Below the pieces are notes generated by a model. That model had not been told where the DNA came from. It searched no databases and saw only the letters and a program-made list of their open reading frames with translations. The translations under genes and the position numbers were made by a program. This document shows, in pieces, positions 3,221-46,816 of a stretch of DNA of 53,856 nt. Numbering within the stretch: the stretch's first letter is position 1; each line of letters begins with the position of its first letter. The DNA is from a virus: positions 1-53,856 of the IMG/VR virus record IMGVR_UViG_3300020119_000151. One strand, written 5' to 3'.

Positions 3221-4144
3221 ATGGACGAAGCAACGCAATATCTGAACGAGTGGCAGCAAGCGCAGGACCGTTATCGGGCCGGCGTCAATGCCGGTTACTC
3301 GGACGCGGACGCGCAACAGTTGTACCTCGCGCCCGTGCAAGCGAAATGGGACGTTCTGAAGTCGGTTCCGCCGGCATTGAAAACAAAAGCCGCGACTGAT
3401 CTGGATACGGCACACATCAACTTTTTGAAGGGCGTTCAGGCGGGCTATCAACCCGGGCAGGCCGCAGACCTCTATTTGAAACCCGCCCTGGCCGAATGGC
3501 AGGGCGCGGCCAACCTGCCCCAGCGCCAGCTTCCCAAGACTTTGGAACAAAGAACCGAGTGGTACGCTCAAAATCCGGCGATGCAACAGGAGGAATCCGA
3601 GGCCCAGCAGCAAATCGCGGAGGGCGTTCCGATCAAGGATGCCATCGAGGGACACCCGATGCTTTTGAAAGCGCCTGGCTTTTCCCAAGTGTGGCGTCCC
3701 ATGTATGAATCCGCCGTTCGCCGCGGTGAAACCGCACAGGCGAAAACGGAACAGGAAAACAGCCCTGAAGGACTGGCGCGGCAGATGTTTCAAATCGCCG
3801 CCGGACGCAAGAATTTCGCCGCTGATTCGCCGGCACAGGCGTTTTTCACCCAGCGCCTTGGTGAGCTTGAAAATCAGGCGACCAATGGGCCGGCGGCAAC
3901 CGCGCCGAACGTCGTTCCCGTGCCGTCGCAGAGATATGCTCCGAAACCGCCAGATGAAGGCCCAACGCCCGAAGAACTGGTTCAGGAGCAACATCCCGAC
4001 TGGACACCCGCACAGGTTAAGCTAGGGGTTTCCGGTAGATTGGGAGGGGCAATCACCCTACCCGAAGTAGGGGAAGTTCGTAAGGGATACCGCTACAATG
4101 GCGGCAACCCTGCCCTTAAATCTAATTGGGAAAAAGTCGAATGA
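3221..4144 (+). CDS. Helical virion-associated protein, unknown function
   Basis: A 307-residue, mostly helical, charged protein. Two related segments (about 8-45 and 62-95) each read like a helix, then GxxAGY..G/DAxxLYL, then a helix with W, suggesting an internal duplication. The C-terminal 30 residues contain a glycine/tyrosine motif (GYRYNGGNP followed by W-E-K-V) often seen at the ends of phage virion proteins. Its stop overlaps the start of the giant gene by ATGA. No catalytic residues are recognised. Confidence 0.6.
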   Translation: MDEATQYLNEWQQAQDRYRAGVNAGYSDADAQQLYLAPVQAKWDVLKSVPPALKTKAATDLDTAHINFLKGVQAGYQPGQAADLYLKPALAEWQGAANLPQRQLPKTLEQRTEWYAQNPAMQQEESEAQQQIAEGVPIKDAIEGHPMLLKAPGFSQVWRPMYESAVRRGETAQAKTEQENSPEGLARQMFQIAAGRKNFAADSPAQAFFTQRLGELENQATNGPAATAPNVVPVPSQRYAPKPPDEGPTPEELVQEQHPDWTPAQVKLGVSGRLGGAITLPEVGEVRKGYRYNGGNPALKSNWEKVE

Positions 4145-7100
4145 GCGAACCTTGGGAAGATTTTCAACAAGGCGCGACGGTGGCAGACGCGCCATCTTCG
4201 GATACTCCACCGTGGGAAGATTTCAAGCCCGCCGTCCTCTCAGACCAAGCCAAGGCTGATTTGGTTGAAACGGCCAAGAAGAACGCCCAGCGGCAGGCCG
4301 CGCTGGGTCAGCCGTTTGCCGAGGTTCAGCCCGGCGGAGACGTGCAGCAACGCGCTCCCGACAACAACGCCGAAGCCAACCGTCAGGAATTCGCCAGCCT
4401 TCCGGGCCGGCTATCCAATGCGGCTGAAGAAGTCGGCGCGGAGATCCTGAACTATCCCGCCGAACTGTGGCGGGCTGATACCGGCAAACCCATGCAGTTT
4501 GTCGTCAAAAAGGACGAGAACGGCAAGGACCAGCTTACGACCGAGGAAAAGCCGCTTCCGTTCCAGCCTGGCATTTCCAAGTTTGAAAACTTCCAGATGG
4601 CGAATGAGGACATCGATCCGGTCAATTCGCTCATGGGCAAACTCGTCCGCGGCGCAGGGACGCCGGGGATGCTTTTGACGTTGCCCGCCGGAGAAGCAGA
4701 CCTTGTGAAAGGCTACTTTCTAACGCAAACCGTTCCTGGCGTCGTCGAGGGGGCGCAAGGCGCTTTGGACACCAGCAAAAGCACGAAGGAGCGCGTTGAA
4801 TCCGGCCTGTCGGGTACGGTGAACGGCCTTTTCTCATACCTGTTGGGGTTGAAGGCCGCAAAAACGCCGCCTGAGAAACTGGCGAGCGAGTTGAACGCTA
4901 CCACCCCTTTGCAGCGGGAAACGCCTGAAGGAGCCCAGCCGTCGCCAATCGTTCAAAAGGTGAATCAAAATCCTTGGGACGATTTTAAGCAGCCGGAGAC
5001 GCCGCCCGCGTTTGTAGGTGAGAAGCTTCCCGCCGGAATGGAAATCCAGCCCGTTGAAACGAAACCGGCTGAAAGTGAAACGAAACCGCCTGTTTCTGAA
5101 ACGGGCGAGCCATTAACTTTACAGCAAATTGCTGATAACCAAAAAGAGCAACACAACAAAACCGTCGCCATAATTCAAAAATTGCGCCCCGGCCTTGATG
5201 TCCAATCTGGGGGGCCAATGGGGGGTATTGAAATGTCTCCCAACGGAAAAGTATTGCGGGTTGGGCCGGAACTTCTTCAAAACGTGCAGGAAATGTATCC
5301 CGGAAGGGAGGAGGAAATAATTAGCCGATTGCTTGACGAGGAGGATATACACCGAAATCAATTCGACGAGCTAGGGGAAGGATTTCAGAAAAAACTTAGT
5401 GACTTGTGGAATGATGCGCCACAAGAAATAAAAAATCTGGTCAAAAGTATTTATTCAACAGACCCAGGAATGGAGGCGCATCATTGGGGCGCAGAATTGT
5501 TGCGAATGGGGCAACAGGCAAAAAACGGAGACTTAACCGAAACCGTCCATCCGACGCGCGGAGATACCGCAGCTAATGGGATTTCCAAGTTAAAAGATTG
5601 GGCGGAAAATCAAACGGGAGACATTGGAAAAGTATTGGGCAATAAGTCCCCAATCGAATCGCTGGGTGAAGGCATCGACTTTGCCACCATCCAAAAGCCG
5701 CATTTGGTCGGCGTCGAGGCAGGACTGAAGCTCACCCCTGAAGATGTTCCAGCGCTCCAAGCCTTGCAGAAGCAATCAGTCGGTGAAATGACCGCCGCCG
5801 CGCAGACCGGCGACAACGCGGCCTTTCAAACCCTGATGGGTAAAAACTCGTTTATCGGCGGCGCAATCGAGGGCGCAAGGCGTAAGGGTCCGAATTACGA
5901 TGTTTATCAATCCCTGAAATCTTCCCCGCCACCGGAATCACCAATTCCAGCGCCGGCAGTTCCGACAGCCGAACCAGCGGCGCAAACTCCCGTTCCGGCG
6001 GCGGGTGAAGTTCCGTCTGGATTCAAAGCTCCGCCCATGCCGGAAACATTCAATTCGGCAGAAGATGTTTTGAAGTATCGGCAGGCATATAAAGACGCCG
6101 AAATCGAGTTTTACAAGTCGCTTGGATTGACTGATGCCGAAGCAAACAAGTTTTTCCGCGCTGGAGACAGCCGAAGCAGCTTGGATGTGTCTAAAATTGA
6201 AGAAAAACTGACGCCTGAAAATCAGGCGCGACTGGATAGTTTTTCGCGTGGCGACGGTGGAGCGGTTTACCAATGGGACAGGCAATACAATCCCGAAGAA
6301 TTGGTTGACGAAACCAGCAAGTCAGATCTTGCCAGAAGCCTTGTCCAAAACATAGCCCGCGAATCTGCCCCGGCTGATTTTGGGGATAAGCTGCTTCATG
6401 GCGTCATCGCCTTACGAAACCTGAAAGCAAACGGGGGAACTTGGAGCGATGTTGCACGTGAGTTGGATTCATTCACTACACGTAATTCAGGTTCTCAAGG
6501 TGACAAGGCTGAATACTTTAAAAACCTTGGATTACAGTTAAGAGAATTTGCCGCCCGTCAGGGCATTGAATTGCCACAGGGGGATATGGGCGGAAAAATA
6601 CCCGATGTCCTGACGCACGGCGACGAGGTTCATGCCACCATGCCGGACGGCACGGAAGTCCAAGGCCACGTCATCGGCGCGGACAAAGAGGGCAACTCCG
6701 TCATCATCCAAAAGACCGGCGAAACGGTCACATTGCCAGAAAAACTAACGGAGGAAAAATCCCATGCCAATCCAAAGTCAAAAACAGTGGAAGTTCTTCG
6801 CAATCCACCACCCGGACCTGTTGAAGAAGTGGCAGGCGGAAAGCCCAGTGAGATTCAGCAGCCTGCCCCAGCACGTACCGCCGAAAGTGCGGGATTACCG
6901 ACCCAAAAAACTGCCGGTGTTCCTCAAGCCGGTTCCGGCGACGTAGCGCCAGAAGTTGAGTTTGTTGATTCGACAGGTTTGACTTCAATGCAGAAGGGCA
7001 AGCTAAAGAAAACCCTGTCCACCACGGTTTCAAAGCGAAACAGCCAAAAGACCTACACCGGCAGCAGGGCTAAAGTTGTCTCTGAAATGGTGAACGATGG

Positions 7101-10100
7101 GTACGAGCCAAAAACCGAACAAGTCAACGCCGTCCCAGATTTGAGCCGGAGACAATTTAATAACATGGACGGTCGGCAGCAGGAGGCGTTTGCAAAGCGT
7201 CAAGCCGAGGCTGGGAAGAAAACTGAATATCGGCTTGAGCATCCAAGCGGATCATTTTTTGATGTCACCAAGGCGGAACACGATTACGCAAAATGGCTAT
7301 CCGAAAGGAATCAAAAACCCGTCGAAACCCCGGTTCAGGCGACGGCGAAGGTTGCGGAGCATATTGCTGAAGTGAAGCAGGCCGAAGGCGCACGTCCCGC
7401 GAAGGAAATCAAAAACGAGTTGGTTGACCATCTGGAAAAGGCGGTTGAGGACGCCAAAGATGAGGATGAATACCTGAAATTGGAAACGGTCAAAGTTCAA
7501 ACCGGAACCCGAGCCAACGCTGCTTTGATGATGGAAGACAAGCCGCTTTCCGAAGTCAAAAACTTAACTAACGCCAATGGTGTTAGGTTTTTCAGCCAGC
7601 ACATTCAACGCGCTTTGGAAAAACATGCTCCGAAAATCGAAATAAACATTCCCGGCGATGGAGACTTCAAGATTTTCAACACCAAGCAGGCGTTGACCAG
7701 TGTTTTGGAACGTGCCAAGAAGATTCAGACAAGTTCAACTGAACCTGTTGCAATAAGCCGTTCTGGAACCTCCAAAGCAGACCGCGAATGGATTCAAAAA
7801 CAGCTTGAAAAACAGCCAGTCGAACCGCCCCCCGCGCAGCCCGCTGAAAAACTGGTCGGCATGGGCGCGGCCATCCCTGAAGAATTCAAGCAGGGCCAGC
7901 AATCGCCGACGAGTATCAAGAACGCCACCGTCGAAAACGAACGGGCCGCACGGGGATTGCCGCCGGCCATCCAACCCGCCAAGCGCGGATTTGGCCGCGT
8001 GTGGGATGAAGCCATGGCCGCGATTGACCAAGACCCGGCAATTCAAGACCGGCTGATTGACGAACTCCGCGCCAAACCCCGCGCATTGACTGATTTTGAA
8101 GATGCGTTGCTGCTCCATCGCCAGATCGAACTGCAAAACCAGTACGGCAAATTGACGCAGGAAATGGCCCAAGCGTTCGACGACTCCAAGGAGTTTCCTA
8201 ACCGGCTGGCTGACGTGGAGGAATTGAAGCCGCGCATTGCCAACGTCAAAGACCAGCTTTTCGACCTGTACGAAATCAACAAGCATGTCGGCACGGAAAC
8301 CGGACGCGGCCTGAACGCCCGCAAGATGCTGGCGTATGAGGATTATACCTTGGCGAAGATGGAACTGGACGCCCGCGCAGCCAATGGTGGACGACCGTTG
8401 ACTGAGGAAGAATCCGCGCAAGTAAAAGCGCTGCACGACAAGATTGAAAAACTTCGCAAGGAATATGATACCTACACCGCGCAAGCGCAGGCGCGAATCT
8501 CCGCGTTGGAAGCGGAAAAGGCCCTGAACGAAATCAAACAGGAGCCGCCGGTTGAGCCGCATGTCCGCATCATCGCCGACAAGGTGAAGAAGTATTTTGA
8601 TGGCCGCGCCATGGCCGCACAAAAGCGGTTATCGGGCAAAACCTTCTCGTTCGAGGCGGCATTGCCCGACCTGATTGATTTGGGAGTTTCAACCATCCTG
8701 TCCGGCGCGGCTGATTTCACCATCTGGTCATCCAAGATGCTGCAGAAGCTGGACAAGAGCATTGAGCCGTATCTGAAAACGCTTTGGGACAAGTCGCAAA
8801 ATGCGCTGGATGACCATCTTCAAAAAGGGATGGCTCCGCAAAATGTCCCGAAGGTGAAACGCGCCCTGAAAAACGTCCCCGCCGCCACCGCAAAAGAGCA
8901 GATTGTTGCCAAGCTCCGCAAGCGCATCGAGGCCGGAAAAAAGGATGAAATCACCGGATATGTTCTCAAGCTGGCGCGATTGCTGGTGTCCGAAGGCATC
9001 AAAGACCGCGATGTTCTGATTGATACCATCCACGAACACCTGAAGGAAATCGACCCGACTATCACCCGGCGCGAGACGATGGACGCCATTTCAGGCTATG
9101 GCGATTTCAAGCCGCTTTCCAAGGATGCCGTCTCAAAAGAGTTGCGCGACTTGAAAGGGCAAATGCAACAGGTTGCCAAGTTGGAGGACATGCAAGCCGG
9201 ACAGCCGCCGCTGAAAACCGGCATTGAACGGCGCATTCCGTCGAAGGAAGAAAGCCGGCTGATAAAGCTGGTGAACGAGGCGAAGCAGAAATTTCAGATC
9301 CCCATCACCGACCCGAACACGCAGCTTAAATCCGCCTTGGACACGCTCAAGACCCGGATGCAGACGCGCATCGAGGAGCTTCAGCAGAAAATCAAAGATA
9401 ACGACTTTTTGCCGCGTCCGAAGCGTGAACCTCTGAAGCTCGACACCGAAGCCTTACGCATCAAGGCCAATTTTGAGCGAGCCAAATTGGAATTTGAGCG
9501 GGCATTGCAGGATTACCGGCTGAAAAACCGTAAATGGTGGGAAAAGTCGGCGGATACGCTGGTAAAATGGCGGCGCGGCTTCCTGCTTTCGTCACCTGTC
9601 ACCCTGGCTAAGTTGACCAGTGCAGCGATTCAACGGCTGGCAATCACTCCCCTTGAGGAAGCGGTTGGCGCTGGCATCGGCAAGGCAATCCCACAAGTCG
9701 CGGCCAAAGCCCCCCGCGAAGGCGGGTTGAACACTAAAGCTGAAGCCAGAGCGTTGACGAGTGTTTTTAAACAAGGCATGAAGGACGCGGCCGAAACCAT
9801 CAGGACCGGCACAAGCCCGCTGGACGTGCTTTACGGGCAGGGCCGCGAGGGGTATGTCCGCGAAAGCATGAGTTTACCCCGTTCGGTCATCGACTTTTTT
9901 GGCAATCTTCACGCCATGCTGAAGGCTCCGGTGAAGCGGGCAGAGTTTGAACGCGCCTACGAGAAGCGCACGGAGCAAGCCATCCGTGAAGGCATAGACG
10001 TGACTGACCCCATGGTTCAAACCCGCATTGCGGTGGATTCTTACAAAGACGCCAATCGCTCAATTTTCCTGCAAGACAACTATCTTGCCACGAAGGTTAA

Positions 10101-10881
10101 AATGTTCTTCTCGGCGCAAAAGAAAAAAGGTGAGCAAACGATTGCCCCCGGCGCGAAGGCTTGGGAAACGACAGGGAAGGTCTTACTGCCCATCGTGCGC
10201 GTTCCGACGAACATCGTCGCCGAGACGTTCACCTATGCCTTTGGGCTTGGCTCAGGCAGTTTAAGGCTCGCCAATGCGCTCAGGAAGGGTTTTGACACGC
10301 TTCAGCCACAAGAGGCCGACTTAATCATGCGCGAGCTTAAAAAAGGCTCGCTGGGCTTCGCGGCGCTGCTTTACGGCTATTTCAACCCGACCATGTTCGG
10401 CGGATATTACCAACAGGGCCAGAAACGTGATCCCAATGATGCCAAGATCGGCAGCGTCAAGGTTGGTAGTGTCAACATCCCCAGCTTTTTGGTGCATAAC
10501 CCGCTTTTGGAGGTATTCCAGCTTGGGGCAACCGTCCGGCGCGTGGCTGATTCTAAAATCAAAGGCGAAACCCAGGGTTTGCCGGCCGGACTGATGGCTG
10601 GCGCACTCGGTTTGTCTGACGAGGTTCCTTTCGTGCGCGAAATGTTCGGGGAAATCCCGAAAATGTTCAATCCGCGCGAGCGCGGGGCATTTTTCGGAGA
10701 ACTGGCGAAGTCGATTTTCATCCCGCAGTTGCTCCAATGGCTTGCAAATTACACGGACAAAGACCAGAGTGGAAACACCAATCCGCGTTCGCCGCAGACA
10801 CCCTGGCAGCATGTCGAAACCGGAATTCCCGGCCTGCGTAAGAACGTGCCTGAAAAGAAACCAACCCAAATCAGCCAATGA
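4141..10881 (+). CDS. Giant 2,246-residue internal virion / polyvalent protein
   Basis: The start at 4141 is chosen because it makes the usual ATGA overlap; an ATG at 4126 is the alternative. Short PWEDF or PWDDF motifs occur at residues 4-8, 24-28 and 278-282, separated by disordered Pro/Glu/Ala-rich linkers. About residues 825-860 look like a small KOW/SH3-type barrel. Long charged coiled-coil segments lie at about 1300-1480 and 1690-1800. The C-terminal third (from RRETMDAISGYGDFKPLSKD, about 1643) is the most conserved-looking part and includes hydrophobic stretches near 1810-1840 and 2065-2090. It resembles the large polyvalent or ejection proteins of podoviruses, which leave the capsid with the DNA. 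No lysozyme-type active site was identified. Codon use shifts to AT-rich in patches (about 5085-5560, 6030-6600 and 6990-7260), suggesting mosaic domain gain. Confidence 0.7.
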   Translation: MSEPWEDFQQGATVADAPSSDTPPWEDFKPAVLSDQAKADLVETAKKNAQRQAALGQPFAEVQPGGDVQQRAPDNNAEANRQEFASLPGRLSNAAEEVGAEILNYPAELWRADTGKPMQFVVKKDENGKDQLTTEEKPLPFQPGISKFENFQMANEDIDPVNSLMGKLVRGAGTPGMLLTLPAGEADLVKGYFLTQTVPGVVEGAQGALDTSKSTKERVESGLSGTVNGLFSYLLGLKAAKTPPEKLASELNATTPLQRETPEGAQPSPIVQKVNQNPWDDFKQPETPPAFVGEKLPAGMEIQPVETKPAESETKPPVSETGEPLTLQQIADNQKEQHNKTVAIIQKLRPGLDVQSGGPMGGIEMSPNGKVLRVGPELLQNVQEMYPGREEEIISRLLDEEDIHRNQFDELGEGFQKKLSDLWNDAPQEIKNLVKSIYSTDPGMEAHHWGAELLRMGQQAKNGDLTETVHPTRGDTAANGISKLKDWAENQTGDIGKVLGNKSPIESLGEGIDFATIQKPHLVGVEAGLKLTPEDVPALQALQKQSVGEMTAAAQTGDNAAFQTLMGKNSFIGGAIEGARRKGPNYDVYQSLKSSPPPESPIPAPAVPTAEPAAQTPVPAAGEVPSGFKAPPMPETFNSAEDVLKYRQAYKDAEIEFYKSLGLTDAEANKFFRAGDSRSSLDVSKIEEKLTPENQARLDSFSRGDGGAVYQWDRQYNPEELVDETSKSDLARSLVQNIARESAPADFGDKLLHGVIALRNLKANGGTWSDVARELDSFTTRNSGSQGDKAEYFKNLGLQLREFAARQGIELPQGDMGGKIPDVLTHGDEVHATMPDGTEVQGHVIGADKEGNSVIIQKTGETVTLPEKLTEEKSHANPKSKTVEVLRNPPPGPVEEVAGGKPSEIQQPAPARTAESAGLPTQKTAGVPQAGSGDVAPEVEFVDSTGLTSMQKGKLKKTLSTTVSKRNSQKTYTGSRAKVVSEMVNDGYEPKTEQVNAVPDLSRRQFNNMDGRQQEAFAKRQAEAGKKTEYRLEHPSGSFFDVTKAEHDYAKWLSERNQKPVETPVQATAKVAEHIAEVKQAEGARPAKEIKNELVDHLEKAVEDAKDEDEYLKLETVKVQTGTRANAALMMEDKPLSEVKNLTNANGVRFFSQHIQRALEKHAPKIEINIPGDGDFKIFNTKQALTSVLERAKKIQTSSTEPVAISRSGTSKADREWIQKQLEKQPVEPPPAQPAEKLVGMGAAIPEEFKQGQQSPTSIKNATVENERAARGLPPAIQPAKRGFGRVWDEAMAAIDQDPAIQDRLIDELRAKPRALTDFEDALLLHRQIELQNQYGKLTQEMAQAFDDSKEFPNRLADVEELKPRIANVKDQLFDLYEINKHVGTETGRGLNARKMLAYEDYTLAKMELDARAANGGRPLTEEESAQVKALHDKIEKLRKEYDTYTAQAQARISALEAEKALNEIKQEPPVEPHVRIIADKVKKYFDGRAMAAQKRLSGKTFSFEAALPDLIDLGVSTILSGAADFTIWSSKMLQKLDKSIEPYLKTLWDKSQNALDDHLQKGMAPQNVPKVKRALKNVPAATAKEQIVAKLRKRIEAGKKDEITGYVLKLARLLVSEGIKDRDVLIDTIHEHLKEIDPTITRRETMDAISGYGDFKPLSKDAVSKELRDLKGQMQQVAKLEDMQAGQPPLKTGIERRIPSKEESRLIKLVNEAKQKFQIPITDPNTQLKSALDTLKTRMQTRIEELQQKIKDNDFLPRPKREPLKLDTEALRIKANFERAKLEFERALQDYRLKNRKWWEKSADTLVKWRRGFLLSSPVTLAKLTSAAIQRLAITPLEEAVGAGIGKAIPQVAAKAPREGGLNTKAEARALTSVFKQGMKDAAETIRTGTSPLDVLYGQGREGYVRESMSLPRSVIDFFGNLHAMLKAPVKRAEFERAYEKRTEQAIREGIDVTDPMVQTRIAVDSYKDANRSIFLQDNYLATKVKMFFSAQKKKGEQTIAPGAKAWETTGKVLLPIVRVPTNIVAETFTYAFGLGSGSLRLANALRKGFDTLQPQEADLIMRELKKGSLGFAALLYGYFNPTMFGGYYQQGQKRDPNDAKIGSVKVGSVNIPSFLVHNPLLEVFQLGATVRRVADSKIKGETQGLPAGLMAGALGLSDEVPFVREMFGEIPKMFNPRERGAFFGELAKSIFIPQLLQWLANYTDKDQSGNTNPRSPQTPWQHVETGIPGLRKNVPEKKPTQISQ

Positions 10882-11285
10882 TGACGATTCGAACAAATAT
10901 AGGATTCCCGCCCGGCGGATTCATCTACGAAGACCCGCGAGTTCAAACCGCGAAATGGCTCGACGACCATACGAGCGTCGATGACCGAACGGCGGAGGTT
11001 GTAAAGTACCGTTCGGCAAATCCATCCATCTATCCCGAGCCGGAATGGACGCAACCGGACTATGTAAAACAGCAGATCATGGAGTTCAACTGTTTGCGCT
11101 GGGGCAACAATCCGCTGTATTGCGTGGATTCGAATGCGTTCAAGTCTGCTCCTGTTGTCCCCCAGGCGGCGCGGCTGTGTCCTGATTGCAACGTCGAAAT
11201 CACCCCAAAGTTTTGCCCGACCTGTTCAGGCCGGCGCATCATCGCTTACGAATGTCCCCAATGCAAAAAAGAATACCCCAAGTGA
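10878..11285 (+). CDS. Small protein with C-terminal double zinc ribbon
   Basis: A 135-residue protein. The N-terminus begins with a pattern frequent in short phage proteins (FPPGGFIYEDP). The C-terminal 38 residues hold CPDC, CPTC and CPQC pairs, enough to bind one or two zinc ions. It overlaps the giant gene by ATGA at its start and the next gene by GTGA at its end, so the three are translationally coupled. The function is unknown; a structural zinc-bound connector is one option. Confidence 0.65.
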   Translation: MMTIRTNIGFPPGGFIYEDPRVQTAKWLDDHTSVDDRTAEVVKYRSANPSIYPEPEWTQPDYVKQQIMEFNCLRWGNNPLYCVDSNAFKSAPVVPQAARLCPDCNVEITPKFCPTCSGRRIIAYECPQCKKEYPK

Positions 11286-43121: not shown

Positions 43122-43273
43122 GCAAGAAGTCGATCAACTGGAAGGCCGTTAAGCAGCGCGAGGCGCATTTCCTGAAACATGGTGCGTTTCCTTCGGAATT
43201 TCCCACCACGGCGGCGAAGGTGAAGCAGTCCAAGAAATCGGTGGTTTTGATTTACGGCCAAGGCAGGCGGTAG
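43118..43273 (+). CDS. 51-residue basic protein
   Basis: ATG 43118 overlaps the upstream stop by ATGA, and the frame ends at TAG 43271-43273. The product is lysine-rich (starts MSKKSINWKAVKQREAHF) with helix then strand. The coupling supports it as a gene. It is the last reading frame before the tRNA-like gene. Confidence 0.55.
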   Translation: MSKKSINWKAVKQREAHFLKHGAFPSEFPTTAAKVKQSKKSVVLIYGQGRR

Positions 43274-43312
43274 GGGCTTGTCAAATCGGCCTGGCTGTGG
43301 CAGGGTGGGCTT

Positions 43313-43389
43313 GCAGAGGTCGTCTAATGTCACAAGACGCTGGACCTGAAATCCAGTGGATGCGGGTGGAATGCCCGCCCTTTGCGCCA
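43313..43389 (+). tRNA. Atypical tRNA-like gene, anticodon TGA, CCA encoded
   Basis: A complete 77-base cloverleaf. Acceptor GCAGAGG pairs with CCTTTGC (one G-T). The D-stem is GTCT/AGAC, the anticodon stem CTGGA/TCCAG with loop CCTGAAA (anticodon TGA, Ser), the variable loop has 5 bases, the T-stem is GCGGG/CCCGC, and then comes G plus CCA. T8-A14 and A15-T48 core pairs are intact. Odd points: base 33 is C not T; the serine-type long variable arm is absent; the D-loop lacks GG and the T-loop is TGGAATG instead of TTCxAxx, yet 19-56 would still be a C-G pair. It may be a specialised or altered-identity tRNA, or a decaying one. Confidence 0.65.
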
Positions 43390-43406
43390 ATTTCGACAAT
43401 GAATCA

Positions 43407-43459
43407 CCCGTTCAGGAATCGCCGGCTGTCGCGGCATCCTGGACGGGCTTTTTAATTTT
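43407..43459 (+). terminator. Rho-independent terminator after the tRNA-like gene
   Basis: An 11-bp outer stem (43407-43417 with 43437-43447, one G-T) with an inner GCCG/CGGC stem, followed by CTTTTTAATTTT. It ends the early operon and lets the RNA candidate downstream be transcribed separately. Confidence 0.8.
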
Positions 43460-43471
43460 CCCATTTTTCTC

Positions 43472-43499
43472 TTGCATGGGGTGGGACAGCGGTGATACA
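43472..43499 (+). promoter_or_regulatory. Putative promoter of the structured RNA
   Basis: TTGCAT (43472-43477), 16 bases, then GATACA (43494-43499). The same -10-like GATACA with 16-base spacing occurs at the minus-strand cassette promoter. Transcription would begin about 43506, exactly at the first helix of the RNA candidate. The -10 is not consensus. Confidence 0.4.
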
Positions 43500-43505
43500 A
43501 CCTTC

Positions 43506-43670
43506 ATGTCAGCGCAAGCTGGCCGGTCTGTGAGAGGACCGTTGCGAGAAAAATGAAACCACGAAATTTCAATGCTGCCGTTGTGCCGACCTTTCCCAAA
43601 GGGCGGCAATTCGGTTCCTCCTGCCCGTCCTTCTCGCGGACTCTCACCGGCGCGACGGTAGCATTGAACT
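43506..43670 (+). ncRNA. Structured, pseudoknot-rich RNA candidate
   Basis: No open frame explains this 165-base segment. Helix 1: 43508-43513/43518-43523 with a GCAA tetraloop. Helix 2: 43524-43528/43537-43541, stacked directly on helix 1. Its loop 43530-43536 can pair perfectly with 43641-43647. Helix 3: 43544-43550/43631-43637. Helix 4: 14 bp, 43568-43581/43655-43668, with one G-T. Hairpin 5: 43584-43608. Helices 3 and 4 cross, so they are either a pseudoknot or alternative states. Helix 4 ends six bases before the ribosome site of the gene at 43683. It may be a leader switch, a ribozyme or a stand-alone RNA; no known class was matched. Confidence 0.55.
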
Positions 43671-43682
43671 TTTGAAGGTCTA

Positions 43683-44132
43683 ATGAAAATTAAAGTCGTC
43701 AATAACAGCGTGGATGAACAGGCAAACCACCGCTCTAATTTCACAACCTGCCCCCACTGTTACCACGAAATGAAAAGCGAAGTGTGGGAAAAGGCGGTTA
43801 CCATCATCGCGCTTGAACCCCGTTGCTACAAGTCCGGTTGCGTGGCGATGATCTCGGAATGCCCCGAATGCTTCAAGCCGTCCTGGGTGCATTGGCAGAT
43901 GGACCATTTCGACAAATGGAGCAGTTGGCCGAAGCACGTTCAGGAAGCTGTCTCCAAAAAGGGCGAGGCCGTCAAGCTCTCCGCCTTGCGGACATGGGGC
44001 CGCTGTATCTGCCATTCCTGCAAGCATCTTACCTCTGGAAAGGTCCAGTTCACCGCATGGCGTGAATGCAAGCGGGGATTCGGGCCGGCGGTGGAAGTCA
44101 AAGAAGGGTGTGAAACCTACGAAAAAGTATGA
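43683..44132 (+). CDS. Zinc-binding protein downstream of the structured RNA
   Basis: A 149-residue protein with GAAGG four bases before its ATG. Cysteine pairs occur at CPHCYHE, CYKSGC, CPECF and CICHSC, enough for two zinc ribbons. The end carries further Cys. It may bind nucleic acid. If the RNA upstream is a leader, this gene would be its direct target. Confidence 0.6.
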   Translation: MKIKVVNNSVDEQANHRSNFTTCPHCYHEMKSEVWEKAVTIIALEPRCYKSGCVAMISECPECFKPSWVHWQMDHFDKWSSWPKHVQEAVSKKGEAVKLSALRTWGRCICHSCKHLTSGKVQFTAWRECKRGFGPAVEVKEGCETYEKV

Positions 44133-44497
44133 ACGACCATATCGCCGTAAAAATTCCGGGCGAAACCGCCTACCGTTGGTACGACCTGCGCGAAATGCGG
44201 AAGGCGCCGCCGGCTGATGCGCTTCCGCCCGGCGTCGGGACGGTGATGGGCATTAAGTTTCACGCAACAAACAAGTTTATCGAACGCGAAGATGGCGAGT
44301 TGGCGCAAATTTACGAAATCGACGCAACCCCGGGCTCGCTCGTACACCAGGACCAGTTACGCGCGGCGCGGGATGAGTTTAAAATCCGTTGGGAGGATTA
44401 CAGGCTGGAACACACTGTTAAATTTCCGGGTCGGACAATCGCAGGCGAGCCTTTGGCTTGGCGGTTCTTCCTGATCGGCAAAGGACTGAAACCGTGA
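44129..44497 (+). CDS. Hypothetical replication-operon protein
   Basis: A 122-residue protein overlapping both neighbours (ATGA and GTGA). It is mixed alpha/beta with AYRWYDLREMRKAPP near the N-terminus and a basic C-terminus. No family is recognised. Tight coupling with the following initiator-like gene suggests a role in replication. Confidence 0.55.
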   Translation: MNDHIAVKIPGETAYRWYDLREMRKAPPADALPPGVGTVMGIKFHATNKFIEREDGELAQIYEIDATPGSLVHQDQLRAARDEFKIRWEDYRLEHTVKFPGRTIAGEPLAWRFFLIGKGLKP

Positions 44498-45141
44498 ATA
44501 CGCAAACCGTCATCGTCTATCAAATCAGGGATTGGGACGTGCATTTCGAGAATGACCGCAGCCGCAACCGGGCGCGTTGCTCCTTCGTGTGCGTCCCGAA
44601 CAAACAGCACGGGCTTGGCTTCTCCCGCATCATGGCGGAGCCGGACGGCGCCGCGATTTACGGCATCTGGCATTGCATCGTCGGGGCATGTTCCCAGCAG
44701 GCGAAGCGTAACGGCTGGCTCACCGTCGATGGTGACCACAAGGGGAGTCCATGGTTAGTGGATGACCTGGCCTTAAAGTTCCGACGGCCGGCCAAAGAAA
44801 TCGAGCGGGCGCTCGAAATCCTCTGTAATGACAAGGTGAATTGGATGATACGGCATGAAAGTAACCGTCCAGTCACCGTCAAGTCACCGCCTGGTCACCT
44901 AGAAGGGAAGGGAAGGGAAGGGAATAGAAGAGAAGGGGAAGGGAATGGACTGCCAATCCCCCCGGTCTTAAAGACAGCAGACCGGATTAGCTACGAGCGC
45001 GAGCTTGGCGAAATAAACCGGGAGCTTCCAAAGCTGGGAAAGCTGTCTGACCATGAGAAGGATGGTAAAAATTACAAGCGCATCCTGACGCTGCGGACGC
45101 GGCGCGACACGTTGCGCGAACTGCTGGGGGTTGTCGCATGA
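44494..45141 (+). CDS. Replication initiator-like (phage O-type) protein
   Basis: A 215-residue protein with a GTG start (GTGA overlap). Residues 5-120 match the winged-helix region of phage replication initiators: VYQIRDWDVHFENDRSRN, VPNKQHGLGFSRIM, YGIWHCIVGACSQQAKRNGW, then DDLALKFRRPAKEIERALEI. A linker encoded by a GGGAA-type tandem repeat (about 44899-44947) leads to a C-terminal helical domain likely to bind helicase. It lies two genes before dnaB. Confidence 0.65.
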   Translation: MNTQTVIVYQIRDWDVHFENDRSRNRARCSFVCVPNKQHGLGFSRIMAEPDGAAIYGIWHCIVGACSQQAKRNGWLTVDGDHKGSPWLVDDLALKFRRPAKEIERALEILCNDKVNWMIRHESNRPVTVKSPPGHLEGKGREGNRREGEGNGLPIPPVLKTADRISYERELGEINRELPKLGKLSDHEKDGKNYKRILTLRTRRDTLRELLGVVA

Positions 45142-45344
45142 CCGCCAATGGTAAAACCACCCGGCGGGACCGGTGCTACCTGTTCGGCCGGCGAGCGTTC
45201 AGGCTGAATCCGCGGCAGGCGGCTACGGCGTGGGCGAGCTTGGCGCAAGCGGTTGAAAATTTAGGGTCGAAGGATGTGCCGAAGTTTAACGACCTGTTGA
45301 ATGGTTTTCGCAAGGCCACACTGGAAGGTTTGAAAAGAATATGA
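45138..45344 (+). CDS. Small basic protein before dnaB
   Basis: A 68-residue basic protein overlapping both neighbours by ATGA. It has a helical core (PRQAATAWASLAQAVENLGS). It may be a helicase-loading accessory by position; no domain is recognised. Confidence 0.5.
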   Translation: MTANGKTTRRDRCYLFGRRAFRLNPRQAATAWASLAQAVENLGSKDVPKFNDLLNGFRKATLEGLKRI

Positions 45345-46816
45345 TCGACTCCGTTTCAGAAAAGGCCAGCGGCGCCCCCGACTTTAGAAAGTCGCGCCGT
45401 CCGAAATCGCTTTCCGAGCGCGGGGCGGCGAGCCTGGACCGTCTGCCACCGAACAACCTTCAGATGGAAATGGGGGTGTTGGGCTGCATCATGCTTTCGC
45501 CGAACGAGTGCATGATGGAGTGCCATGAGAAGTGGAAAGGGCAGGGCAAGGAGGTGTTTTACGACCTCCGGCATCAGACGATCTACGAACACATTTGCGC
45601 GATGTACGAGAAGCGCCAGCCGATTGACCTGATAACCCTGCAAGCCCGGCTGAAGACCGCGAACCTTTTGGAACAGATTGGCGGCATCGCCTACCTGTCA
45701 CAGATTCAGGACAGCGTTCCCAGCGCGGCGAACCTCGGGTATTACCTGGTTGAAGTTGAGGAAAAGTATTTGCTCCGCGAAATGATTCAGACCTGCACTG
45801 GGGTTGTCGGGCGAATCTACCAGTACGAGGGCGAGGTTGACCAGTTGCTTGATGAGGTTGAGAAGGAAATTTTGCGCGTGAACCAGCGCCGGACGGTAAT
45901 GCCCCTTCCGGATGTGAAAAGCTTGGTGAACAAATCCATCGTTCAGATTGAACAGATGTTCAACCGGAAGGGCGAACTGGTCGGCATCCCCAGCGGATTT
46001 CCCGACCTGGACCGGCTGACCGGCGGATTCATGCCCGGTGACATGATCGTGATAGCCGCCAGGCCAAGCATGGGAAAAACGAGCCTCTGTATGAATATCG
46101 CCGAGCACGTCGTCATCGAGGCGAAGGCTCCGGTGGGCGTGTTCTCGCTCGAAATGAGCGCCGAAAGTCTGATGACGCGGACGCTTTGCTCGCTGGCGCG
46201 GGTGAACATCCGGATGATTCGGGACGGGTTCATGAACGAGGCGGATTTTCCGAAGCTGATGACGGCGGCGGGGAAGCTTTCCAACTCTAAGCTGTTCATC
46301 GACGCGACGACGGGATTGACCATCCTGCAACTGCGGGCGCGCGCGCGACGAATGGTGGTGGAGCATGGCATCAAGCTGTTCGTGATCGATTACCTGCAAC
46401 TGCTCCATTCGAGCATCAAGCGCCGGGAGGAAAACCGCCAGCAGGAGATTGCGGAGATTTCCAGCGGCATAAAGGAAATGGCGAAGGAGTTGGGCGTCCC
46501 GGTGATTGTGGCCGCGCAGTTGAACCGCGAGGTTGAAAAAACCCAACGCAAGCCGCGCATGAGCGATTTGCGGGAATCCGGTTCCATCGAGCAGGATGCC
46601 GATCTGGTCGGTTTGCTGTACAAGCCGGAATCGGAGGACGATGACGACGAGGCCGGGACGCCGGCAGAGGAACTGGAAGGCATCCCGGTGAACCTCCTGA
46701 TTGCGAAGCAGCGCAACGGACCGACTGGCGAAGTGAATTTGACGTTCCTGAAACCATACACAAGATTCGAGAGTGCGGCGAAGTTCTCGAATGAAGATGT
46801 CCCTGACGGTAAATGA
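45341..46816 (+). CDS. dnaB: Replicative DNA helicase DnaB
   Basis: A 491-residue protein of full DnaB length. The N-terminal domain begins NNLQMEMGVLGCIMLSPNEC. The RecA-like core has Walker A ARPSMGKTS (residues 240-248), LEMSAESLMTR, Walker B FVIDYLQLLHS, and the QLNREVE and DLRESGSIEQDADLV motifs of the family. KQRNGPTGEVNL closes the domain. It forms the hexamer that unwinds the fork and must work with host primase and polymerase, because none is encoded here. Confidence 0.95.
   Translation: MIDSVSEKASGAPDFRKSRRPKSLSERGAASLDRLPPNNLQMEMGVLGCIMLSPNECMMECHEKWKGQGKEVFYDLRHQTIYEHICAMYEKRQPIDLITLQARLKTANLLEQIGGIAYLSQIQDSVPSAANLGYYLVEVEEKYLLREMIQTCTGVVGRIYQYEGEVDQLLDEVEKEILRVNQRRTVMPLPDVKSLVNKSIVQIEQMFNRKGELVGIPSGFPDLDRLTGGFMPGDMIVIAARPSMGKTSLCMNIAEHVVIEAKAPVGVFSLEMSAESLMTRTLCSLARVNIRMIRDGFMNEADFPKLMTAAGKLSNSKLFIDATTGLTILQLRARARRMVVEHGIKLFVIDYLQLLHSSIKRREENRQQEIAEISSGIKEMAKELGVPVIVAAQLNREVEKTQRKPRMSDLRESGSIEQDADLVGLLYKPESEDDDDEAGTPAEELEGIPVNLLIAKQRNGPTGEVNLTFLKPYTRFESAAKFSNEDVPDGK

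Follow-up and report, generated by a model that had tools for sequence, protein, structure and literature searches.

A double-pseudoknot RNA family overlapped by a short reading frame at the start of phage replication operons: a candidate translational leader

The window analysed here, that is the whole stretch of DNA studied, is a 53,856-base virus record in IMG/VR (53.9 kb). Read rightward, the locus of interest holds a tRNA-like gene, a terminator, a promoter-like block, a structured RNA and a replication operon. Behind the RNA the operon continues with genes for a Cys-rich protein of 149 aa (43683..44132, + strand, function unassigned), a 122-aa protein, a 216-aa protein that is conserved (44491..45141, +), a 68-aa protein and the replicative helicase (45341..46816, +), which we take from its motifs to be of the DnaB type. 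The 149-aa protein falls into no clear family, a protein search of viral contigs and phages returned no relative of it, and its structure model has a pLDDT of 34 and is too poor for use. The 216-aa protein has no Pfam or PHROG match. Its N-terminal 110 residues are strongly conserved (CSFVCVPNKQHG, IYGIWHCIVGACSQQ), and it was through its homologues that relatives of the RNA were found. Far from this locus, an ORF of 2251 aa (window 4126-10881) is likewise without a Pfam match.

The tRNA-like gene lies at 43313-43389 and scores 46.9 bits with the Rfam tRNA model; it was missed by ARAGORN and by the fast whole-window Rfam scan. By eye its anticodon is UGA, and its T loop reads UGGAAUG where the usual tRNA T loop is UUCRANY. 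The related phage G001, whose capsid is 93% identical to that of the window, has a related element (L017 ~11127-11217) that keeps the D-loop and T-arm blocks but whose anticodon arm is far larger, a GCAA hairpin being inserted in it. A true tRNA-Gly(UCC) follows right after this element (L017 11222-11296), at the place where the window has the terminator. The block TTGTCAAAT ... GGCTGTGGCAGG is conserved before the tRNA-like genes (window 43270-43312, L017 11022-11067) and is probably their promoter in both phages; its -10 region apparently closes with AGGGT or AGGAT, as in two of the loci described below (L026, L028).

The tRNA-like unit ends in an intrinsic terminator (43407..43453, +), made of the stem 43407-43417/43437-43447 and five T. 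The stretch 43400-43460 folds at -27.6 kcal/mol (z -3.90), and a simple terminator scan missed it because the loop is too long for that scan. An earlier note on this DNA, written from the sequence alone, had placed a terminator ahead of the RNA, and a strong one is indeed there. A probable promoter follows at 43462..43501 (+), with the upstream block CATTTTTCTCTTG, a -35-like TTGCAT (43472-43477) and a -10-like region CGGTGATACAAC (43490-43501). Its blocks recur at identical spacing in G001 (L017:11472-11511), which bears out the proposal that the RNA has a promoter-like sequence of its own, although a scan of the window promoter gave no match to the sigma-70 consensus. We also observed that CATTTTTCTC, located before the promoter (43459-43471), recurs inverted in the junction of the RNA (43546-43558, GAGAAAAATG), and that a 16-base stretch of this junction matches the promoter region of G001 (L017 11466-11481) on the other strand.

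Positions 43508-43680 of the window carry a double-pseudoknot RNA on the + strand, composed of two hairpins, the helices S1a and S1b and a long helix, P2, that crosses them. Hairpin 1 (43508..43523) has 6 bp and a GCAA loop, with a fold probability of 0.98-1.0. It abuts hairpin 2 (43524..43541, CGGUC/GACCG), whose loop carries the 5' strand of S1a (GUGAGAG, 43530..43536). This strand pairs with CUCUCAC (43641..43647), which in turn abuts the 3' strand of P2. S1b joins GCGAGAA (43544..43550), directly before the start of a leader ORF, to UUCUCGC (43631..43637). P2 pairs a 5' strand of 21 nt (43568..43588) with 43648..43668 and by helix enumeration has 21 bp, 18 of them Watson-Crick and 3 G-U. 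Next to it, in P2b, GAAA (43563..43566) pairs with UUUU (43670-43673), which are conserved columns 47-50/163-166 of the alignment A8 described below. A further hairpin, P3, lies inside P2 (43601..43626; stem 43601-06/43621-26). The hairpins, the 7-bp loop-to-distal pairing and the second 7-bp helix of the earlier note are all present in the sequence, and its two adjoining helices correspond to the abutting hairpins 43508-43523 and 43524-43541. The crossing helix is there as well, but it has 21 bp (43568-88/43648-68) and not 14. The GNRA tetraloop exists in the window as GCAA, but it is not conserved among the members of the family, where the loops differ, and we rejected it as a defining feature for this reason.

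Among local helices (span up to 250) on the two strands of the 53.9-kb window none is as long as P2, and the next has 18 bp; a helix longer than 14 bp arose in 0/500 shuffles. The nested fold of 43480-43700 has a z of -3.50; adding S1a, or S1a and S1b, to it gains ~11 or ~20 kcal/mol, before any pseudoknot penalty. The two smaller helices together are reached in 29/5000 shuffles. On one sequence the pseudoknot is therefore only suggestive, and a reading of the locus as a chance fold, or as an inverted repeat at the DNA level without RNA function, could draw on this number; with relatives the evidence becomes decisive. Against a DNA-level repeat speaks that all three non-Watson-Crick pairs of the window P2 are G-U on this strand. 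A retron, a MITE and a terminal repeat were rejected by inspection, as the annotated parts contain no reverse transcriptase or second copy.

Relatives of the RNA were not found by a protein search with the 149-aa protein, by an exact 21-mer of S1 or by blastn. Searches with the helicase, capsid and portal proteins did find relatives, in which blastn showed no RNA; in one portal relative, phage G007, the RNA was later detected by the covariance model. A terminase alignment added no relatives of the RNA. The search with the 216-aa gene brought eight viral loci and two Verrucomicrobiota genomes, and the RNA is present in 8/8 of the viral loci. In L031, pieces 90% and 84% identical to it (blastn) stand just before the 216-aa homologue, and the other loci have the same anatomy in different letters. 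The covariance model R1 was built from six sequences (MAFFT alignment, with P2 and hairpin 2 as pairs) and run over 22 sources, with E-values that are rough owing to a short calibration. It placed the RNA on the expected strand in 10/22. Two of these, L029 and L033, were dropped because in the 230 nt compared they do not differ from L028 and L032, and the distinct sequences are eight: the window, L020, L026, L027, L028, L030, L031 and L032. This family size is a lower bound (at least 8 distinct sequences). L027 is truncated at its 5' end and is excluded from the counts of S1 and of leader-ORF starts. L020, which belongs to the unrelated-looking phage G007, had been chosen for its portal gene and not for the 216-aa gene; although its sequence is absent from the model, the match there scores 98.9 bits, while the best unrelated matches reach 14.4 and 13.5 bits and the matches of 18.6-36 bits are reverse strands of the members themselves. 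There the RNA lies just after a TTGACA and before a 77-aa ORF and DnaB.

The RNA was not found in the examined stretches of G001, L002, L004, L005, L007 and L009. G001 keeps the tRNA-like region and the promoter block of the window and is without the structured RNA and the 149-, 122- and 216-aa genes; its first gene differs. Nor was it found upstream of the 216-aa relatives in the two Verrucomicrobiota genomes (L034/L047, L048), one bacterial relative being located in a Verrucomicrobia MAG, and R1 with strict filters matched 0/387 Verrucomicrobiota genomes. The members found here come only from uncultivated phages. Rfam gave no match at gathering score over the whole window; with E up to 10 in 43200-43800 only the upstream tRNA was convincing, the rest being families at chance level, and six relatives with E up to 0.5 gave 0 matches. 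Among the open-access papers listed by our searches, none has a title or abstract that describes this RNA.

Covariation among the members carries the case for the fold. In alignment A8 (7 complete sequences; S1a and P2, 28 scored pairs) 95.9% of the cells are paired and 17/28 pairs are changed on both sides. The covariation score is 0.631 against a shuffled mean of 0.231, 0/500 shuffles equalled any of these values, and the pairing drops to 32-46% when the partners are shifted by 1-3 columns. All six scored pairs of S1a are 100% paired in 7/7 members, five of them with changes on both sides, and the 22 scored pairs of P2 and P2b are 94.8% paired, 12 being changed on both sides. In a second alignment, A7, which has 8 rows and was fitted to hairpin 2 and P2, the latter is 94.2% paired with 14/24 pairs changed on both sides; that hairpin 2 is only 57% paired on A7 is due to register slips there. 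By hand alignment S1b is complementary in 7/7 members, with 7 bp in the window and L028, 8 in L032 and L020, 5 in L030 and L026, and 4 (one of them G-U) in L031. Hairpins 1 and 2 and P3 also fold in all seven, with loops that differ and with different P3 sequences. The mutually exclusive long helices that had been suggested did not survive this comparison. The alternatives 43525-37/43630-42, 43538-46/43651-59 and 43588-94/43674-80 are 59%, 24% and 45% paired in the other members, near background, compared with 100% for S1a and 93% for P2, whereas S1a, S1b and P2 are topologically compatible and conserved together.

Covariation in related phages had been set beforehand as the observation on which the proposal of a pseudoknot-rich structured RNA of no recognised class should stand or fall. 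It is strong, and no Rfam family matches. Judged from the aligned sequences, the RNA (~155-175 nt) represents a new family in which two pseudoknot helices are intertwined, S1a/S1b crossing P2. We consider family and pseudoknot almost certainly real. The covariation and the independent match in L020 leave next to no room for a chance fold, which we count as refuted.

The gene that follows the RNA is not constant. It is the 149-aa gene in the window, the 216-aa gene in L026, L027, L031 and L032, an HNH-like gene in L028, a short ORF in L030 and the 77-aa ORF in G007 (names by eye). As the first gene varies among members, the RNA belongs to the operon and not to one first gene, and the idea of a specific tie to the 149-aa gene was dropped. 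The operons of the members carry the conserved 216-aa gene and/or DnaB, and the first gene is itself a replication gene only in some. By gene order, the RNA heads a phage replication operon at its 5' end. In L026, L028, L030, L031, L032 and G007, hairpin 1 is preceded at 28-30 nt by a TTGAC-like hexamer (4-6 of 6 matches). In the window, TTGCAT (43472-43477) lies 30 nt before 43508 by counting, where the script had chosen another hexamer, so that a -35-like hexamer stands 28-30 nt ahead of hairpin 1 in 7/7 members, with that of the window counted by hand. Single matches are weak (0.4% to 70% of shuffles are equally good), and it is their constant spacing that suggests that transcription begins at hairpin 1 or beside it. 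In the window a start near 43508 is probable, with the RNA at the 5' end of the transcript. A pairing of ACCUUCA (43500-06) with UGAAGGU (43673-79) was rejected as an RNA helix, since with such a start its 5' strand would fall partly in the promoter.

A place at the 5' end of the transcript, two adjacent 5' hairpins and a U-rich stretch after P2 in every member would also suit a control of transcription, either with P2 and the U tract as an attenuator or with the 5' hairpins as an antiterminator that targets RNA polymerase. The put RNA of phage HK022 is such an antiterminator, acting on RNA polymerase, and an early phage transcript likewise begins with its pair of neighbouring hairpins; we know of no leader ORF or crossing long helix in it. 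However, the short U tract in our RNA is taken up by pairing with the conserved GAAA (P2b), P2 encloses ~60 nt, unlike ordinary terminators, and a scan allowing loops of 8 at most found no terminator at P2. Neither attenuator nor antiterminator explains the ORF or the crossing helices inside it, and we regard control of transcription as improbable.

The leader ORF of the window has 40 codons (43553..43675, +), with its ATG in an A-rich junction and its TGA 7 nt before the next ATG. In 7/7 complete members an ORF of 32-40 codons has its ATG in the A-rich junction right after S1b. Counted from the first base of the start codon that follows, its stop falls between 10 nt before and 4 nt past it. 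Of the other two frames, +1 is closed in all seven members and +2 is open in 3/7. All three stop codons (TGA, TAA, TAG) occur, and G007 and L032 use one other than that of the conserved UUUUGA. The truncated L027 is open in the same frame, with a stop that overlaps the next ATG, and in comparison with L028 it shows 3-nt insertions in both P2 strands, by which the helix is longer and the frame is kept. One reading frame is held inside both P2 strands and the 3' strands of S1. Composition shuffles put the chance of such a placement at 0.035-0.053 per member (0.214 for L032); the product over members, 1e-9, assumes independence and, given the relatedness of the members, is too small, understating chance. 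Should the RNA dictate the start and stop signals, what counts is only the agreement and openness of the frame. The codon usage of the window ORF is not gene-like, lying below 97% of in-frame stretches and being exceeded by 8% of off-frame stretches. Outside close pairs the leader peptides are weakly alike by eye, and the Shine-Dalgarno energies of the leader ORFs are mostly weak (+0.4 to -5.6). We think it quite likely that the leader ORF is translated.

This ORF also bears on the choice between a switch and a ribozyme, which the earlier note had left open. The switch is likely, in the form of a translational leader, while the ribozyme has no positive evidence behind it. Nested crossing helices do have a topology like that of some ribozymes. 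HDV-like theta ribozymes occur beside phage tRNAs (PMC10879173), and the RNA has a tRNA-like gene upstream. However, the terminator separates the RNA from the tRNA-like gene, and for this reason, and as no model matched, an HDV-like ribozyme downstream of the tRNA was rejected. The Rfam searches described above, in the window stretch and in the six relatives, returned no ribozyme. In all seven complete members the ORF crosses the RNA and reaches as far as the next gene, which suits a leader better than an element that cleaves. A self-cleaving ribozyme is very improbable.

The next start codon lies 3-9 nt after the U tract behind P2 (position by eye), and in most members no Shine-Dalgarno sequence precedes it. 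Exceptions are L032 and the window; in the latter the sequence is GAAGG (43674..43678, +), which overlaps the stop of the leader ORF and has a duplex energy of -3.9. The baseline for such energies is noisy, with 22% of 143 first-ATG genes at -4 or better. Where the 216-aa gene is not behind the RNA, its values are -5.5, -9.5, -4.7 and -3.0 (window, L030, L028, L034), and where it is, they are -1.9, -3.3, -9.3 and +0.4 (L031, L026, L032, L027); with four cases against four and this baseline, the weaker Shine-Dalgarno behind the RNA is suggestive only. In the nested fold, which ignores the pseudoknot, the start of the leader ORF is 0.51-0.92 unpaired (0.25 in L030) and the region of the next start (-18..+6) 0.21-0.44. 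The latter opens to 0.76-0.90 when the body of the leader ORF is held open, again with the pseudoknot ignored.

The fold, its place at the operon start and the ORF reaching to the next start codon are established at the level of sequence. The mechanism that we propose for them is a translational switch for the first gene of the operon. Ribosomes would load at the A-rich start of the leader ORF, which is the main unpaired stretch and is transcribed ahead of the 3' strands of S1 and P2. Moving along the ORF, a ribosome would strip these strands, stop within a few bases of the next start codon and restart there, which would explain why most such starts lack a good Shine-Dalgarno. If no ribosome arrives in time, S1b would close over the leader-ORF start and P2/P2b would hold the next start beside a helix of 13-21 bp, with the replication gene off. 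By coupling leader-ORF translation to RNA folding, the leader would in this way determine when, or how strongly, the first replication genes are expressed, and host translation, a phage or host protein or an antisense RNA are candidate triggers that may tip the balance. Our confidence differs between the parts. A coupling of leader-ORF translation to the next gene seems rather likely, a race between ribosome loading and RNA folding is a tentative proposal that we lean against more than towards, and for the switch as a whole, which is the most likely of the readings, we find belief and doubt evenly balanced.

A pseudoknot could also serve the next gene without any leader peptide, by binding 30S or S1 as a standby or IRES-like element and delivering it to the next start. 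A start close behind the U tract and mostly without Shine-Dalgarno is what such an element would provide for. There is precedent in E. coli toxin mRNAs, where likewise a 5' pseudoknot near the transcript start governs a structurally hidden downstream start. In tisB, 30S and S1 bind far upstream of the sequestered site and need the 5' pseudoknot for this (PMC7708055), and in timP the pseudoknot is essential while a putative uORF is dispensable (PMC11228461). In contrast to what is reported for timP, the ORF is conserved here; the genes differ, and no family matches. A recruiting pseudoknot needs no ORF, yet the ORF is open and in place in all seven complete members, and it needs no frame, yet the paired 3-nt insertions that distinguish L027 and L028 keep it. 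We consider recruitment alone unlikely. Kinetic folding or coupling to a uORF, on which the proposed switch would depend, has likenesses elsewhere. In the leader of the MS2 maturation gene translation is allowed before the leader reaches its final fold. These likenesses come from an RNA phage and, for hok/mok, a plasmid toxin, and to our knowledge neither shares helices or sequence with the RNA described here. The hok start is opened by coupling to the uORF mok (PMC11228461).

In its logic the RNA appears nearest to the replication leaders of I-complex and related plasmids (IncI/IncB/IncFII type; repB/repA; ColIb-P9 repY/repZ; R1 tap/repA), which likewise have a leader peptide before the replication gene. 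Two of their traits are found here, namely a leader ORF ending at the start of the gene behind it (ORF and stop placement in 7/7 complete members) and a hairpin loop that pairs with a distal segment of the leader (S1a, 100% paired). In ColIb-P9 a pseudoknot reportedly acts as the switch (Asano and Mizobuchi 1998, cited in PMC10724649). The ColIb-P9 pairing is located just before the rep gene. In the phage RNA, by contrast, the partner of the hairpin loop lies within the leader ORF, and this pairing is crossed by a helix of 13-21 bp. Sites targeted by regulators usually have such a shape too, a compact double pseudoknot in which a hairpin loop is paired, and a protein, a metabolite or an antisense RNA might bind the phage RNA as operator, riboswitch or countertranscript target and control the operon, with the leader ORF as a reporter. 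In plasmids of the I-complex, the leader peptide upstream of repA must be translated, and an antisense RNA controls it (PMC10286972). Against a regulator target speak the first-gene products, which differ between members, so that autoregulation by one first-gene family does not apply, and the lack of an Rfam riboswitch match; we judge it to be improbable as well. The RNA is not classed as a plasmid leader, because it has no sequence relation to them (blastn of the window and L026 RNAs, two of the eight distinct members, against 72,556 plasmid records gave chance-level pieces or none) and its arrangement is another one, in a phage and not a plasmid.

Returning to the translational switch, its most far-reaching version joins the double pseudoknot and the overlapping leader gene into one device. 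Folding of the RNA during transcription would compete with the first ribosome, so that the phage would sense the translation speed of its host and start replication accordingly, with the next gene entered by restart next to the folded RNA without Shine-Dalgarno. This version is speculative and we think it doubtful. The family itself adds an RNA supported by covariation, without an Rfam entry and with a fold as intricate as those of riboswitches and ribozymes. It offers a testable case in which phage replication genes may be governed by a race between ribosome loading and RNA folding, and it suggests that a solution resembling that of plasmids, a leader peptide and a pseudoknot before the replication genes, may recur in phages.
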